This document shows positions 32,732 to 40,261 of a DNA stretch of 64,000 bases, one piece after another (the stretch's first letter is position 1; each line of letters begins with the position of its first letter). The notes under the pieces were generated by a model. The model had not been told where the DNA came from. It made no database searches and was given only the letters and a program-made list of their open reading frames with translations. The position numbers were made by a program, and so were the translations under genes. The stretch spans positions 121,489 to 185,488 of the forward strand of contig CAMLRL010000001.1 of NCBI GenBank assembly GCA_946482465.1, read 5' to 3'. The stretch is from an uncultured Lactobacillus sp. (GTDB lineage: Bacteria; Bacillota; Bacilli; Lactobacillales; Lactobacillaceae).

Positions 32732-32750
32732 TTTTATTGGGATATCCGGG
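32732..32750. repeat. attL core (19 bp)
   Basis: TTTTATTGGGATATCCGGG, identical to 40185-40203. Confidence 0.85.
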
Positions 32751-32833
32751 ATAGCACTGTACGTGTTGAAATGCTTGTTAAATCAACACTTTCAGCACTC
32801 ATTTTAAAAATTTGCACCGAATTTTGCACCTGA

Positions 32834-33974
32834 TTATCCATTCATGTAATTGTCTAGTTTTTCAACAGCCTTATTCTGATGATACTTTGATACGTGAGTG
32901 TAAATATCCATCGTAGTTTTAATGGACTTATGTCCTAGCCTAGCTTGTACGTCTTTCATAGAAACACCTGCTTCAAACAACAGTGAGGCGTTGGTATGCC
33001 TAAAACCGTGAATAGTAATGCGTCTAAGACCTGCTTTTTTGCAAATAGCTTTGTTCCAGTTGACAATAGCGCCCTCACTCAATGGCTTATTCCCTACCCC
33101 ACGGTTAAATATGACCTGATTACTAGTAATACTAATAACTACTGCTTGTTTACGTTGCTCTTGCTGCCACTGCTTTAGTATATTTGCCGTACTCTTATCA
33201 ATTGCTATTTTACGATAGCTACTACTGGTTTTTGGTGTTTGCACAATAACTTTATTATTTAGTCCTTTGGTGAGGGTACGTTTAACACTCAATACATTCT
33301 CTCTAAAATCAATATCAGACCATTTAAGCGCTAATGCTTCTCCTCGGCGCAATCCTGTATAAGCTAACAATCTAAACAAGGTAAACGCCTTTTGATTGTA
33401 TTTCTCAGCATAGATCAGGAACTTCTTTAGCTCCTCTTTAGTATAAAAGTTAGTAAACTCCTTGTGGACGTTCTTAACTTTGGGACGAACTACATTCTTC
33501 ATAGGATTTTTATTGATTATCTCTAACTTAATAGCATAATCAATTACATCACTGGTATAGAAGATATACTTCTTATAAGTTCCAGGTGCATCCCTAAACC
33601 ACTGGTTTACTGCCTTTTGACACTGAATTACTGTTAGCTTGTCCAAGTAGATATTACCTAACACCTTAACCACATGATCGTTAATAATACGTTTGGTGGT
33701 GGCAAAGGTGCTTTCTTTTACAGTGGGTCGATAAACCTCTAGCCACATTTCTATCACTTCAGAAAGCTTAAGACGCCGTTCATTAAATGGCTCATATTCT
33801 CCTGTCTCAATGGCTAACTCTGCTTTTAGATACGCTTCACGTGCTTCTTTTAGGCTCTTTAAGCTGCTTTTTCTAATTAAGATAGATTTTACCTGTACTG
33901 CTATCTTTACCAACATAGATACTGAATTTATAGCGTTTCTTACCTGTTTTAGTTTCATATTCAATAATGTTCAT
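32834..33974 (-). pseudogene. int: Tyrosine recombinase/integrase with N-terminal frameshift
   Basis: Catalytic domain intact (TGLRRGEALAL, HGFRHTNASLL, LGHKSIKTTMDIYTHV). The N-terminal arm-binding domain MNIIEYETKTGKKRYKFSIYVGKDSSTGK lies in a different frame, starting at 33974. Confidence 0.8.
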
Positions 33975-34002
33975 AGTTTAGTTACCTCTTTTAGCTTTAA
34001 AA

Positions 34003-34032
34003 GGCAATGGTGGACTAATCAAAGTATCCTAA
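34003..34032 (+). repeat. 30-bp direct repeat copy 1
   Basis: GGCAATGGTGGACTAATCAAAGTATCCTAA; 28/30 identical to 36290-36319. Confidence 0.8.
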
Positions 34033-34071
34033 TCTATGTTTAATATATGTTCAATAATAAAATAGGAGTTA

Positions 34072-35124
34072 TCAATAAAAATTATCTTCGTCTTGGTATA
34101 GATAATCAGGATCTTCATAACCAACATCTAGATAGTTATCTTCTACATCAATTTCTCTGTCTTTTAGCTCATCAACATATTTGTCTATAATAGCAGTATT
34201 TTCTTTATTTTCCTTTTTATAATCACTAAATAATTCTAAATATTCCTTATCCTGAGAATTGGTTAATAAGAAGTTTTTAAGCTTTTTGTCTTTCAACAAT
34301 CTATCATATAATTCATCAATTATACTTGAAAATTCAATAATTTCGTATTTGTCCGGTTCATATATAGAATATATTGTTTCTTTAACATAATTTGCAAATT
34401 GTTTATTATAATTTTTTTCTTCAAAAGTATCTTTTTTAAAAGTATTTACTTGTTTCTGTAATTTCTTTAATAGATCCACATATTGATTAATTGCTAATCT
34501 AGCAGAAGATAAATCAAGATATTTTATTTTATCGATTGCCTCTTTATGTAAATCTTTTTCTTTATCAAAATTCTCCATATAAAATTTGCCTAAAGACGTA
34601 AGATTATGGGGTGACTCAGGATAAAGTATTTTATTTTTAATTATCTCATGTAAATTAAAAATAATTTTATATTTATCGCCTTTGTTAATATTTTTAAATT
34701 TTTCACTATTAAGTATTTGTTTGAAATGTGTTAACCAATAGTCCTTAACTTTTTGTGTTAATAAAAATGTTTTATCATCCCTTTTGTAAAGCTCTCTAGG
34801 TATAACATCTCTACTTGTCAACTTAATATAAATATTTACCTTATTAGAAAAATCATCATAAACTGAAAAAGCCATTTTAGGATCATAACCAGTAAAATAA
34901 AATTCATGAATTACTTTTATCATTTCAGACGTTGTGTAAGTCATTCCTTGAATATATGGAACAGATACTTTAAAAAATCTAGCTAATTTTTGCCATGTTT
35001 CTATCTTGGGTTCAGTCTTGTTATTTTCGTAATTACTATATGTGCCACGTTTTATTCCAGTTTTTTCTTCTATATCATCAAGGGTCAATTTCCTTTGATT
35101 TCTAAGTTCTTTCAATCGATTCAT
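34072..35124 (-). CDS. XRE-family repressor (cI/Stl-like, no S24 peptidase domain seen)
   Basis: MNRLKELRNQRKLTLDDIEEKTGIKRGTYSNYENNKTEPKIETWQKLARFF; divergent from the small right-arm genes; long acidic C-terminus. Confidence 0.85.
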   Translation of the reverse strand: MNRLKELRNQRKLTLDDIEEKTGIKRGTYSNYENNKTEPKIETWQKLARFFKVSVPYIQGMTYTTSEMIKVIHEFYFTGYDPKMAFSVYDDFSNKVNIYIKLTSRDVIPRELYKRDDKTFLLTQKVKDYWLTHFKQILNSEKFKNINKGDKYKIIFNLHEIIKNKILYPESPHNLTSLGKFYMENFDKEKDLHKEAIDKIKYLDLSSARLAINQYVDLLKKLQKQVNTFKKDTFEEKNYNKQFANYVKETIYSIYEPDKYEIIEFSSIIDELYDRLLKDKKLKNFLLTNSQDKEYLELFSDYKKENKENTAIIDKYVDELKDREIDVEDNYLDVGYEDPDYLYQDEDNFY

Positions 35125-35184
35125 ATTATTTACTCCTGTTACTTAACACATTTTAACATCAATAATTTAAAAATGAATAAATAA

Positions 35185-35260
35185 ATCTAAAAATTTTAGA
35201 TATTGACATCTAATAAACTTAGATATATTATTTTATTGTTGTCATCTAAGAAATTTAGAT
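35185..35260. promoter_or_regulatory. Three 17-bp palindromic operators plus rightward promoter
   Basis: ATCTAA-N5-TTAGAT at 35185-35201, 35208-35224, 35244-35260. TTGACA (35203) -17- TATTAT (35226) overlaps the second site. Confidence 0.85.
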
Positions 35261-35279
35261 TTATTTAAAGGAGATTATA

Positions 35280-35462
35280 TTGAATACAAAATTTTTTAGT
35301 TATAAAGACGCAATGAATTATTTAGGAATCAAATCACCAATTACATTACATAGTTACATAAAACATGGCTTACTAGTTATTAAAATTTGTAATTCTAAAA
35401 AAATCAGTAAAGATTCAATAGACAAATTCATGAAAGAACATCAAAAAGTAGTTAATGACTAA
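35280..35462 (+). CDS. Small HTH/excisionase-like protein (TTG start)
   Basis: RBS AAAGGAG. FSYKDAMNYLGIKSPITLHSYIKHGLLVIKI...ISKDSIDKFMKEH resembles a HTH_17/Xis fold. Confidence 0.65.
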   Translation: MNTKFFSYKDAMNYLGIKSPITLHSYIKHGLLVIKICNSKKISKDSIDKFMKEHQKVVND

Positions 35463-35477
35463 TTATAGGAGATAAAA

Positions 35478-35729
35478 ATGAAAGCTGGAATTACAATACC
35501 AAATTATCTTGACAATAAATTTATTCAAATGGCTTCAGAAAGCAGTACTTTAAATGAATGCTTAAGTTTACTCACAGACAAAATAGATGAAATTATAAGT
35601 CCTAGTGACTTAACGTTGGATAAATTGAATAAAATATCAGCTTTGGCCAAGTTAATTGAAAGTTATGCAGATAAACATAATAACTTGGTAAACCAAACTT
35701 ATATGTTGGTTACTTGCGGAAAGGATTAA
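35478..35729 (+). CDS. Small hypothetical protein, tandem paralog A
   Basis: 83 aa, RBS upstream; C-terminal half aligns with the next ORF. Confidence 0.6.
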   Translation: MKAGITIPNYLDNKFIQMASESSTLNECLSLLTDKIDEIISPSDLTLDKLNKISALAKLIESYADKHNNLVNQTYMLVTCGKD

Positions 35730-35734
35730 CAGAA

Positions 35735-35986
35735 ATGAAAACATTTGTTAAAAATACTAAAGCATTAAATACTGGCTTAATAGCTGCATCCCTTCAAAGT
35801 GAAAACATGTTAAGAGCTGCAGAAATAATGCTTGAAAAACTACATAGTATTCAAGGTCCTGAATACATGACACTAGATGATTATGAACAGCTTTATGCGT
35901 TAACAGATTTAATGAAAGTATACGCAAAATACCAGCGGGATGAGATATCACATACACAAATGCTAATTGAGTTTAAAGAGGAGTAA
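35735..35986 (+). CDS. Small hypothetical protein, tandem paralog B
   Basis: MTLDDYEQLYALTDLMKVYAKYQRDEISHTQML aligns with LTLDKLNKISALAKLIESYADKHNNLVNQTYML of the previous ORF. Confidence 0.6.
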   Translation: MKTFVKNTKALNTGLIAASLQSENMLRAAEIMLEKLHSIQGPEYMTLDDYEQLYALTDLMKVYAKYQRDEISHTQMLIEFKEE

Positions 35987-35991
35987 AACTT

Positions 35992-36261
35992 ATGGAAGAA
36001 AAAGAGATTAAGACTGTTATTGTTAATACAATTAAAGAAACTCTTAACAAACCCAAACCTTATTTAAATCGCCGTGAAATTGCAAAATATTTTGGTGTAG
36101 CTGACTCAACTATTAGCAATTGGGCTTCTTTAGGGATGCCGGTAGCTGTTATCGATGGGCGCAAAATGTATGGCAAGGAAAGTATAACCAACTGGTTAAA
36201 GTCAAAAGAGCAAACAAAAAGCCCGTTACTAACCAACAGTAACGAGCAACAAGCAAAATAA
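35992..36261 (+). CDS. HTH DNA-binding protein
   Basis: YLNRREIAKYFGVADSTISNWASLGMPVAVIDGRKMYGKESITNWLKS. Confidence 0.75.
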   Translation: MEEKEIKTVIVNTIKETLNKPKPYLNRREIAKYFGVADSTISNWASLGMPVAVIDGRKMYGKESITNWLKSKEQTKSPLLTNSNEQQAK

Positions 36262-36289
36262 TCCATTAATAAAAATTAAAACCACAATA

Positions 36290-36319
36290 GGCAATGGTGG
36301 ATTAATCAAAGTATTCTAA
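36290..36319 (+). repeat. 30-bp direct repeat copy 2
   Basis: GGCAATGGTGGATTAATCAAAGTATTCTAA; 28/30 identical to 34003-34032. Confidence 0.8.
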
Positions 36320-36358
36320 ATGAATTATTTTCTTAATTATAGATAAAACGAGGTATTT

Positions 36359-36905
36359 ATGCTAGTAGATTATGCTATTAAATATTCTGAACATGGTTTT
36401 TCAGTAATTCCAATTGGTCAAAATAAGCGGCCATTAATTAAATTTGCTGATAAACCTCCTTTAACAACTAATCAGATTATAGAGATTTGGGCAAAGTATC
36501 CAGATGCTAATATTGCACTGAAAACAGAGAATTTTTTTGTAGTGGATGTTGATAGACACAGTACTAATATAGACGGCCTAAATTCCATTAGAGAACTCAG
36601 TCTCCTGAGTGGTTTAGAAATACTTTAGCAGAGAAAACAGCACACAATGACTTTCATTTCTTTTTTCAAAAGCCAAAAAACATTAACATACATCAAAACA
36701 TTGTTTTTTTTGCCTAGCGTTGATCTTAAAGCACATCCTAATAATTATATAGTATGGCACCTAGCAAACTAAATGGCAAGTCTTACGAGTGGCTTAATCA
36801 CTTTTCTATTAAACCTATTCCTAAAGATCTTATTGACCTAATTACGAAGAAACAAACTTTCAAGGAGAAGTTTTTCACGAATAATTATGTTAGCAGTATT
36901 AGGAA
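36359..36905 (+). pseudogene. Decayed bifunctional primase/polymerase (prim-pol) N-terminal domain
   Basis: MLVDYAIKYSEHGFSVIPIGQNKRPLIKFADKPP...VVDVDRHSTNIDGL. Continues in other frames as EWFRNTLAEKTAHNDFHFFFQKPKNINIHQN, VDLKAHPNNYIV, then APSKLNGKSYEWLNHFSIKPIPKDLIDLI. Confidence 0.8.
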
Positions 36906-37364
36906 TAAACATGTGCGTTGTTTCTAAAGGGTATGCATTCGATAATCAGGATATAAATTAATATTTCTAGTCTGTTTTGTAAACTTTAAGCTTTTAAGAA
37001 ATGCTAGAATTTGCTAGGAAAAAGTTCTGCTATGCTAATTAGGTTTGGTGACACTAAATAAGTTTGTCTATACTGGTTAAAAATAAATTGACCTTTAATA
37101 CTTAATATATAAATAATTTACTGAAATTTACAACCGTTTTAAATAGACTGATTACTTATTCACGGTGTTGAACAAGTAACAAATATATAGATTATCAATA
37201 TTCCTCTAAATTCATCTATAAAATAACATTAAGCTTAAGACTATTATAATTCACGTGTTATATTCAATCAATTAAGAATAGAAATTAGTCGTTTCATAAA
37301 AAATAATCACTTTAGAAAAATTGAATATCTAAAGTGATTGTCCCTTATATGTAACTTTTTGTGA

Positions 37365-37790
37365 TTATTTATCTTCTTTATTTTTAAATTCTTTATATTG
37401 ATCAACAAAGTTAAGAGTTGGCAATATGGTAGTCATTGGATTATCCATAGCCATAATCATAGATACTGTAGATCTCAAATAAGGGTAAAGCATAGCACTA
37501 CCATTCATCATCAAGTATTTTTGTTTATCTTTAAATTTATCTATATCTTTTCTAAACTTAAAGAAACCTGTAACTCCGATATCAACAACCTTCTTTTGCT
37601 CTTTATTAAAAATATGAGCAGTCATCAATATCTTCCCAGTATTTGATTCTTTATCAATTCCATAACTCATATTAATATCACTTTTTTTAATTTCTTTTTC
37701 TAATGAGTCAATCTCTTCCTTTGAATGATATTGGTGATATTCAATATCAGATATTCGGTAACTCATTATTTTTATAACAGGGTCAGACAT
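37365..37790 (-). CDS. SecB-like chaperone (TAC chaperone candidate)
   Basis: 141 aa; MNGSAMLYPYLRSTVSMIMAMDNPMTTILPTLNFVDQYKEF resembles the SecB/SecB-like C-terminal signature; third gene of a minus-strand operon. Confidence 0.7.
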   Translation of the reverse strand: MSDPVIKIMSYRISDIEYHQYHSKEEIDSLEKEIKKSDINMSYGIDKESNTGKILMTAHIFNKEQKKVVDIGVTGFFKFRKDIDKFKDKQKYLMMNGSAMLYPYLRSTVSMIMAMDNPMTTILPTLNFVDQYKEFKNKEDK

Positions 37791-37798
37791 TTTTATTC

Positions 37799-38041
37799 CT
37801 ATGCAGCTTTTACAAAATAGTCAGAAGACAATTGATCATTTGGATATATAACAAAATTATTTTTACTATAATTAATTGATGGTATCTCATTTTCATGAGT
37901 GGTTATTTCAGAAGTCTTTTCAAAATTAAAGTTATCTGCTGCAGTTATTAAATTTTCTGCAGCATGTAAAAGATCATCATAAGACCAAAAATCATCCATT
38001 GCTTTGAGCATTGTATCAGCATCTACACTATATTTAGCCAT
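37799..38041 (-). CDS. Small protein, candidate antitoxin with hydrophobic C-terminal tail
   Basis: GGAGGTAATT-ATG start at 38041; MAKYSVDADTMLKAMDDFWSYDDLLHAAENL...NNFVIYPNDQLSSDYFVKAA. Lies between the ART-like and SecB-like genes. Confidence 0.65.
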   Translation of the reverse strand: MAKYSVDADTMLKAMDDFWSYDDLLHAAENLITAADNFNFEKTSEITTHENEIPSINYSKNNFVIYPNDQLSSDYFVKAA

Positions 38042-38061
38042 AATTACCTCCATTTTAATAT

Positions 38062-38691
38062 TCAAAACTTTAAATCAGATTCTGGGCATTTATATATATT
38101 AAAACTACCTGTTTTAACGATACTCGGATCTTTTATAAGAACTTCTACTCCATTAAGAATACTTGATTCGTGTAAAACATCATCTTTTATATATGTGTGT
38201 GTTGGAGCTTGTACAGCTTTAATTTTTGCTAAATGTTTTTCCTTTAAAGTTAAACAGTATAACTCAATCATAGCACCATCTAAACTTTTTTGAGGACCTT
38301 GATTACTATATTTTTTAGCCAAATAATCCACAATTTTTTTCACTTTTGAACCATGTAACCATTGATTCAGTCTTTTAGAATCCTCACTAATACCATCAAG
38401 CACTAACAAATTGTCAGAAAGCACATCAGCCTCTAATTCAAACACTACAGTATGATTGTACTTTTCATCAGATAAAAATTTATTAGCAAACTTATATGCA
38501 ATTTTAGGATCATCCAAAAACGTATAAAAACCATAGCCTAAACTCCCTGGTTCTTTGCCTTTTATATCATGGTTCTTAATTTGTTTAGTTGTATATGTGT
38601 CGGGTTTAATTGCTTTTTCTTTATTTACTTTTAAATCTTTTGAACCCACAAAATCAGTACCATGATATAAACGCATTCTACAAAATCCCAT
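38062..38691 (-). CDS. ADP-ribosyltransferase-like (DUF3990-like) toxin candidate
   Basis: MRLYHGTDFVG...GSLGYGFYTFLDDPKIAYKFANKF...SLDGAMIELYCL; H-Y/F-E-type ART spacing read by eye. Confidence 0.6.
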   Translation of the reverse strand: MGFCRMRLYHGTDFVGSKDLKVNKEKAIKPDTYTTKQIKNHDIKGKEPGSLGYGFYTFLDDPKIAYKFANKFLSDEKYNHTVVFELEADVLSDNLLVLDGISEDSKRLNQWLHGSKVKKIVDYLAKKYSNQGPQKSLDGAMIELYCLTLKEKHLAKIKAVQAPTHTYIKDDVLHESSILNGVEVLIKDPSIVKTGSFNIYKCPESDLKF

Positions 38692-38822
38692 ATCTCTATG
38701 TTAATTAAAGTTATTTACCCTATGAATCCATTTTACTCTATTTAACTCTTTAAAAAAAGAAATAAATTTATTTTTATGTAATTCGCATAATTAATCAGCT
38801 TCTAAATTTGTATTGCTCTCTA

Positions 38823-38852
38823 AATATATACCGCTAATTATGCTATAGTCAA
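38823..38852 (-). promoter_or_regulatory. Promoter candidate for the TAC-like operon
   Basis: Minus strand TTGACT (38852-38847), 18-nt spacer, TATATT (38828-38823). Confidence 0.55.
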
Positions 38853-39062
38853 ATAGAGTAAAATTTATTCCCGTAACAATTATAATTACATTTATAATTT
38901 AGTCAAACTATTTTTATTAATTACTTAACTATAAGATGTCAGAATTCATTTTTAAGTTGATAAAATTGAATATTGTCAAGATTTATTTTCAGGTGGAAGA
39001 AAAAGGTCGATGATCTTAAATAACTTGTGACAATGATATTGTGGATAATGAAATTAACATAA

Positions 39063-39407
39063 ATGCAGAAATTAATAGTTAGAAAGGAACTTTATCCAGA
39101 ATTTATTGCAATTCTCGGTATCTTCACCGCTATTACTTTTGCCATTTTCGGTGGAATGAACTTACTTAGCAACTTATTCCAAAATATGAAAAGTACACAT
39201 ACTTCATTAGGTCAAGCTCTAATTCTTGCTGCAATATTTGGTTTAATTATGTGGGGTATAACTATACTATTATTTTATTGGATAAGTACGATTAAAAAAG
39301 ATCAGTCTAAAAAATTCTATAAAAATTGGGGCTTTTGGGTAAATATATTGTTCATAGTATCAATTTTATTAGTATTAATAATAGGCCTATGTTTTTTCTT
39401 TAAATAA
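39063..39407 (+). pseudogene. Truncated copy of the membrane module of the 28692 gene
   Basis: YPEFIAILGIFTAITFAIFGGMNLLSNLFQNMKSTHTSLGQALILAAIFG is near-identical to the 28692 protein. The upstream frame VDNEINI(N)AEINS* suggests a lost N-terminus. Confidence 0.6.
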
Positions 39408-39587
39408 TAAAATACTATGTAGCAATTAAAAAGGAAATCTATTAACATTTTTACCTACTTTTTAACAAATAAAACCCTAGTAAATGCTAGTATTTGCTAG
39501 GATTAATTTCTTTAGCCTAGTTGAAACGGTCGCCTAATATTAGATTAAAACCTGAAAAAGCTGTAGTACCCAGAATGGTACTGCAGC

Positions 39588-39971
39588 TTATTTTATTAAC
39601 TTAAATGACGGGTTTAGATTCATTTCCTTTTGGATTTTAGCAAAATTCTCCATAAACTCATCAATTGCTATGTGCTTTAAATCGTAATAGCGTGATTGTT
39701 TGTAACCAACATCCGTAATTACTACACGATTAGGTTTATCAAATATATACACTCCAGTTAAGATTTTTCTTGATTTTTCTGAACAAGCCTTAATTGCTTT
39801 AATAATACATGCGGTAATATTCTTAGCATACTCAATTCTCTTGTTAATTTTAATGCCTTTAAATCTATCTATGGGCCCTTTTACTAAATCAGCTTTACGT
39901 TGACCTGAACGAGCTGTAAAGACGCTGAAATCACGTTTAAGAAAAGCTCTTACGCCCTCTTTATATTTCAT
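39588..39971 (-). CDS. ArpU-like phage transcriptional regulator
   Basis: AIKACSEKSRKILTGVYIFDKPNRVVITDVGYKQSRYYDLKHIAIDEFMENF resembles the ArpU/RinA-type late regulator pattern. Confidence 0.65.
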   Translation of the reverse strand: MKYKEGVRAFLKRDFSVFTARSGQRKADLVKGPIDRFKGIKINKRIEYAKNITACIIKAIKACSEKSRKILTGVYIFDKPNRVVITDVGYKQSRYYDLKHIAIDEFMENFAKIQKEMNLNPSFKLIK

Positions 39972-40087
39972 TTTATGTTCCTCTTTTTGGTTAACACTTT
40001 ATTTTTAATTACGTTTGCAGTTCTATCCAAAATATGAAGTCTAATATGAAGTTTTTTAGCCCATTTAGGCTAATTCATAAAACCAAA

Positions 40088-40124
40088 GAAAAAAGCTAGA
40101 TGAATTATATTCATCTAGCTTTTC
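40088..40124. terminator. Perfect hairpin terminator near the element end
   Basis: AAAAAGCTAGATGAAT-TAT-ATTCATCTAGCTTTT. Confidence 0.8.
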
Positions 40125-40184
40125 TTAACGCTCTGATGGACAAATGATGGGCGTTAGCTACCACCACGATTGCCGTTGAGCTAT

Positions 40185-40203
40185 TTTTATTGGGATATCC
40201 GGG
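40185..40203. repeat. attR core (19 bp) within tRNA-Gln 3' end
   Basis: TTTTATTGGGATATCCGGG, identical to 32732-32750. Confidence 0.85.
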
Positions 40204-40261
40204 CTCGAACCGAAACATGCAGGAACCAGAAACCTGTGCCTTACCATTTGGCTATATCCCA
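40190..40261 (-). tRNA. tRNA-Gln (CTG)
   Basis: TGGGATATAGCCAAATGGTAAGGCACAGGTTTCTGGTTCCTGCATGTTTCGGTTCGAGCCCGGATATCCCA; cloverleaf with one U31-U39 mismatch. Confidence 0.85.

Follow-up and report, generated by a model that had tools for sequence, protein, structure and literature searches.

A probable CmdTAC-like toxin-antitoxin-chaperone operon in Lactobacillus with a putative chaperone-addiction tail on its antitoxin

Does the short open reading frame (ORF) that lies between a toxin gene and a SecB-like chaperone gene in a Lactobacillus genome encode an antitoxin, and does its C-terminal tail place that antitoxin under the control of the chaperone? In the HigBAC, MqsRAC, and HicABC systems, a SecB-like chaperone gene adjoins a toxin-antitoxin (TA) pair and the antitoxin bears a C-terminal extension that is missing from its chaperone-independent relatives (PMC5105189, PMC6377645). 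Studies of chaperone addiction (ChAD) found that aromatic tail residues of Mtb HigA1 are bound by the SecB-like protein (PMC5105189, PMC6377645), and artificial grafting has been shown to convert members of other antitoxin families to chaperone control (PMC5105189). PD-T4-9, or CmdTAC, is a toxin-antitoxin-chaperone (TAC) phage defense system of E. coli ECOR22 (PMC9519451, PMC11618068). Its trigger in E. coli is a phage capsid protein; its toxin CmdT ADP-ribosylates mRNA at GA sites; its antitoxin CmdA has an N-terminal helix pair and a long unstructured C-terminal domain with an LAA end and is cleared by ClpP; and CmdT-type toxins have an H-Y-[E/D/Q] triad (PMC11618068). Here, we analyzed the ORF at 37799-38041 of a 64,000-nucleotide stretch of DNA (hereafter the window), which an initial annotation had read as an antitoxin candidate with a possible ChAD tail.

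Results

Gene layout and predicted structure of the antitoxin

The ORF runs from 38041 to 37799 on the minus strand and encodes an 80-residue, CmdA-like protein. It is the second of three genes in an operon, all on the minus strand, and lies 20 bases downstream of a toxin gene and 8 bases upstream of a SecB-like chaperone gene. Both segments of the protein cited in the initial annotation match the translation exactly. The ATG, which has a GGAGG ribosome site upstream, is a better start than an in-frame TTG that would give 88 residues. Searches of Pfam, NCBIfam, and PADLOC yielded no family match for the antitoxin, and the addition of PHROG still gave no significant family. Hence no DNA-binding domain was detected, in keeping with the earlier view that the protein is not HigA-like.

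An AlphaFold2 model built from an alignment of 13 relatives has a low overall pLDDT of 59.6. It predicts helices at residues 8-18 and 21-37, with pLDDT 71-79 in the helix blocks, and from residue 57 on the tail falls below 50. The N-terminal 40 residues are weakly related to the antitoxins of loci L004 and L085; similarity is weak even to the nearest relatives, a small search giving 28% identity and E=0.002 for L004.

The C-terminal tail comprises the last 23 codons and the stop, YSKNNFVIYPNDQLSSDYFVKAA, at 37799-37870 on the minus strand. It had been described as hydrophobic and aromatic. The aromatic-rich patches are there (INYSKNNFVIY and DYFV), but the hydrophobicity is not uniform. Both the predicted disorder and the co-occurrence of such tails with chaperone genes suggest that this is a chaperone-addiction stretch.

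Assignment of the toxin and the chaperone

The third gene product of the operon, a 141-residue CmdC-like SecB-like chaperone (37365-37790, minus strand), matched PADLOC model PD-T4-9_C at E=3.9e-15 and PHROG 21664 at E=2.5e-21; its match to Pfam SecB (E=1e-4) is under the curated cut-off. A single-sequence search of PDB sequences found no credible relative of the chaperone, and a search of viral contigs found no match. Since the PD-T4-9_C model also picks up Lactobacillaceae chaperones that belong to other TAC types, the toxin needed a separate test.

The toxin gene (38062-38691, minus strand) starts at an ATG at either 38676 (204 residues) or 38691 (209 residues). Among 401 Lactobacillaceae genomes, 18 encode relatives of its product, the source genome being one of them. 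Upon alignment of the toxin family, we found that Y51, D133, and G134 are invariant and H5 and E178 nearly so; H5, Y51, and E178 are the presumed catalytic triad. The window toxin matched neither PD-T4-9_A, at E values up to 10, nor any other PADLOC toxin model, and we therefore class the system as CmdTAC-like and do not call it CmdTAC. Four of the 18 toxin family members do match PD-T4-9_A (best E=8.8e-5), and six have weak matches to the PARP catalytic domain. Remoter relatives from the phylum match PD-T4-9_A more strongly (L072, 3.8e-9; L070, 2.7e-7). When the family profile of the window toxin was compared with the PD-T4-9_A-matching clade by hhalign, the two were joined at 99.4% probability (E=6e-22), with E178 of the window clade opposite an invariant Gln of the CmdT-matching clade. 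This correspondence fits the published H-Y-[E/D/Q] triad (PMC11618068).

The AlphaFold2 model of the toxin (pLDDT 85, pTM 0.84) is confidently predicted to have an ADP-ribosyltransferase (ART)-like fold. In a Foldseek search of the PDB, the ART proteins VPA0770, PARP-2, RES, and ParT were among the best matches at modest E values of 0.015 to 0.2, and the top match was a cyanophage ejectosome protein (3e-4). Together with the family alignment and hhalign, the model points to a CmdT-like ADP-ribosyltransferase. A Pfam KilA-N match on the toxin (0.008) was rejected as chance, being below the cut-off and missing from the rest of the family. A profile search of PDB sequences found no credible toxin relative. 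By tblastn, the window toxin had no match in phage and plasmid records; the remoter L081 toxin had some.

Upstream of the toxin gene, a promoter-like site, TTGACT-16-TATAAT (11/12 matches), occupies 38879-38906 on the minus strand; such sites are no more common in the region than in shuffled sequence, so we treat it as a candidate. Between it and the toxin start lies a 24-nt inverted repeat with 88% complementarity (38724-38870; arms 38724-38747 and 38847-38870), a candidate operator or leader structure. Within the window, its exact 14-nt core occurs only in these arms.

Tail and chaperone co-vary among relatives

For each toxin relative, the gene immediately downstream of the toxin was treated as the antitoxin, and we looked for a SecB-like gene in the 1.5 kb that follow. 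After removal of near-duplicates, 53 loci were left, 35 with a chaperone gene and 18 without. Both last antitoxin residues were apolar at 33 of the 35 loci with a chaperone versus 2 of the 18 without (Fisher p=1.4e-9), by a criterion set only after the tails had been inspected and with antitoxins at chaperone-free loci assigned by position. An [AV]A end was found at 26/35 and 0/18 loci, respectively (p=9.7e-8). For comparison, 13% of 104 long ORFs end in two apolar residues and 2% in [AV]A. Chaperone-linked antitoxins are also longer (median 96 versus 62 residues, p=2.5e-7), and their last 25 residues, compared over the first 28 loci with and the first 17 without a chaperone, show more aromatics (3.0 versus 1.5, p=0.002) and lower hydrophilicity (p=2e-5).

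This association was also seen along the toxin tree. On a tree of 49 rows, chaperone presence changed at least nine times. Of 8 independent pairs joined by supported branches, an average of 6.7 showed tail and chaperone changing in the same direction and 0.2 in opposite directions (median sign-test p=0.016). The tree partner of the window toxin itself, L003 (bootstrap 99), lacks a chaperone gene, and its 63-residue antitoxin is tailless. The first 30-40 residues are common to tailed and tailless antitoxins alike: the cores of L085 and L007 matched at E=5e-6 and those of L004 and L007 at E=3e-5, and the L108 antitoxin matched that of L024 at E=2e-6 and the tailless profile at E=6e-10.

Chaperone-free, CmdTA-like pairs occur within Lactobacillaceae at L003, L005-L009, L011, L012, L017, L018, and L020-L024. 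They share the toxin family with the window system and, where it is detectable, the N-terminal antitoxin core, but their antitoxins (49-88 residues) are without an apolar tail and no chaperone gene adjoins them. We found no description of such pairs in the open-access literature searched. In our SecB-like survey, genomes G021, G194, G209, G211, G233, G316, and G327, all with chaperone-free pairs, had no SecB-like match. One of these, G327, carries four chaperone-free CmdT-like toxin pairs (L005, L021, L023, and L024).

A few loci depart from the trend. The L103 antitoxin (98 residues) has an aromatic tail ending in -TMA and no chaperone gene nearby, possibly a three-gene system after a chaperone loss that may be recent, and the L024 antitoxin ends in -AL without a chaperone. 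Conversely, L046 (-SL) and L096 (-AS) have a chaperone and no apolar end by our criterion. The ends at L036, L046, and L050 are mostly hydrophobic with no -AA. Tail and chaperone co-vary, and relatives that have no chaperone retain the helices but not the tail; the ChAD reading made in the initial annotation is therefore well supported by these comparisons.

The degron-like C terminus

The window antitoxin ends in -DYFVKAA, and its terminal -KAA is likely a ClpXP-type degron. The source genome's own tmRNA was not found in an assembly that is 54% complete, so we compared the SsrA tags of congeners, which end in -SYAVAA or -SYALAA.

Similar ends were seen in other TAC types. In Lactobacillaceae, a separate ART-like toxin group (YH...GKGMYFWDN; L025, L028, L033, and L047) has SecB-like chaperones, and the antitoxins seen have small apolar ends (-IA, -AA, or -VA). 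Common three-gene systems with a second protein of ∼175-209 residues and a SecB-like chaperone were found at L026, L027, L029-L032, L034, L038, L039, L043-L045, L048, L049, and L051-L053; these second proteins mostly have small apolar ends as well (-VA, -AA, or -AV), consistent with a degron-like end common to TAC types.

The operon lies on a tRNA-integrated island

The operon is within a 7.45-kb integrated island of satellite-like layout (32732-40210, no strand assigned). The att-like direct repeat TTTTATTGGGATATCCGGG is present at both ends, at 32732 and 40185; the right copy lies over the 3′ end of tRNA-Gln(ctg) (40190-40261, minus strand), which forms the right border, and the left copy lies beside a tyrosine integrase gene (32834-33964) just inside the left end. 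Between them are genes for a CI-like repressor, HTH/excisionase-like proteins, a broken Prim-Pol primase, and a phage activator-like protein. The primase ORF (36359-36927) stops after an 89-residue N-terminal part, so that self-replication of the island has probably been lost. The tRNA-side flank is conserved across the genus, and an empty site, with the left flank joined to the tRNA flank, was found in none of 60 other genomes of the genus. Judged by these borders and gene content, the operon is cargo of an island in tRNA-Gln. The island also holds a 34-nt direct repeat (91%) at 33999-34032 and 36286-36319, flanking the repressor/HTH genes, and, beside the operon, a divergent small membrane protein gene at 39063-39407 (PHROG 5763).

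The order of toxin, tailed middle gene, and chaperone was found again in dozens of other genomes. In the Streptococcus satellite phage Javan245 (L095, 2983-4250), the same three genes lie behind the primase and encode a CmdT-like but unannotated toxin, an antitoxin ending in -GDAA, and a SecB-like chaperone. An E. faecium plasmid carries the three-gene set with the chaperone annotated as SecB.

Discussion

We consider it highly likely that the ORF encodes the antitoxin of a divergent CmdTAC-like TAC system that would work by a switch combining chaperone addiction and antitoxin proteolysis. What we computed directly is the operon, the chain of homology, the ART fold, the layout of helices followed by disorder, the co-variation of tail and chaperone, and the island context; binding to toxin and chaperone, degradation, the phage trigger, and the RNA target are drawn by analogy from CmdTAC (PMC11618068) and the ChAD work (PMC5105189, PMC6377645). 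By that analogy, the N-terminal helices would bind and neutralize the ADP-ribosyltransferase toxin, and perhaps aid its folding, while the disordered aromatic-rich tail would make the antitoxin dependent on the SecB-like chaperone, which would cover both the tail and the -KAA end. A phage protein that occupied the chaperone would leave the tail exposed, ClpP-type proteolysis could then remove the antitoxin, and the freed toxin would stop translation, probably through ADP-ribosylation of RNA. The three-gene system on the island is probably a phage defense.

The likeness to CmdTAC, for which ECOR22 was compared via PADLOC models and the published description alone, extends to the order of toxin, antitoxin, and SecB-like chaperone, with the window chaperone in the same family; to an ART toxin with an H-Y-[E/D/Q] triad; and to an antitoxin predicted to consist of two helices and a disordered tail, ending in -KAA where ECOR22 CmdA ends in -LAA. 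The differences are that the window toxin is too diverged for a direct CmdT model match and that the system resides in a low-GC Gram-positive host on a tRNA-integrated island. The protein is indeed not HigA-like, but the distinct antitoxin family that had been proposed is not new, as the protein fits the published description of CmdA (PMC11618068). The initial annotation did not mention the degron-like end, the relation to CmdTAC, or the location on a mobile island. HigBAC, MqsRAC, and HicABC share the adjoining chaperone gene and the C-terminal extension, but their antitoxins are classical HigA, MqsA, or HicB proteins, whereas here no DNA-binding domain was detected and the toxin is ART-like. 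ParST and RES-Xre also pair an ART-fold toxin with a neutralizing partner and are among the nearest solved folds, yet no sequence relation to the window system was shown. We know of no SecB-like chaperone in those pairs.

Several other explanations have to be weighed against this one. The tail could be a degradation tag alone, with -KAA as a ClpXP degron and the chaperone binding either the toxin or another part of the antitoxin, so that addiction would come from shielding against proteolysis rather than from an aggregation-prone stretch. In its favor, the strongest single signal lies in the last two residues ([AV]A in 26/35), the antitoxin ends look like those of SsrA tags in the genus, and it is ClpP that clears CmdA (PMC11618068). 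Yet chaperone-linked antitoxins are ∼35 residues longer and their last 25 residues hold more aromatics (3.0 versus 1.5, p=0.002) and differ in hydropathy (p=2e-5), all beyond what a tag needs, and in Mtb HigA1 it is the aromatic tail residues that the SecB-like protein binds (PMC5105189, PMC6377645); we regard a tag alone as rather unlikely. The system might instead be an independent TAC lineage, CmdTAC-like at the switch and not at the toxin, in which an ART toxin that is like CmdT in fold only acts on another target (protein, tRNA, or DNA). The missing direct PD-T4-9_A match, the Glu in the window clade where the CmdT-matching clade has Gln as third triad residue, and the use of ART folds by toxins of many targets would all agree with this, but the homology to the CmdT clade found by hhalign is at the level of sequence, the operon order is identical, and the chaperone class is the same, which makes a separate lineage unlikely.

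The broken primase of the host island, with its ORF ending after 89 residues, raises the question of whether the operon is a degenerate remnant and no longer functional. That seems quite improbable given that none of the three closely spaced TAC frames is interrupted and that their conserved residues are kept, only the island replication gene being broken. Finally, the ORF is short and without a significant database family, as would be expected were it not an antitoxin at all and its tail an unremarkable low-complexity end. The ribosome site, the gene position, and the N terminus in common with L004 and L085 speak otherwise, as does the finding of a tailed middle gene in this gene order both in other genera and on mobile elements; the comparative data already contradict this chance reading, and we hold it to be extremely improbable.

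As a CmdTAC-like system, the window operon is a divergent addition to a known kind of TAC, with an antitoxin of a known kind, and the set of CmdTAC-like systems gains a Gram-positive, mobile-island-borne relative. It is possible, and we suggest it tentatively, that CmdT-like ART systems have alternated repeatedly between a two-gene, chaperone-free, tailless form and a three-gene form with a ChAD tail, an SsrA-like degron, and a SecB-like sensor. Tail and chaperone would then be a portable phage-sensing cassette, gained and lost on one toxin family and carried by satellite-type islands to exclude phages. The extra value of the finding lies in naturally occurring pairs of related toxins, one with the chaperone-plus-tail module and one lacking it, which make it directly testable whether tail and chaperone alone turn an ordinary TA system into a chaperone-controlled phage sensor.
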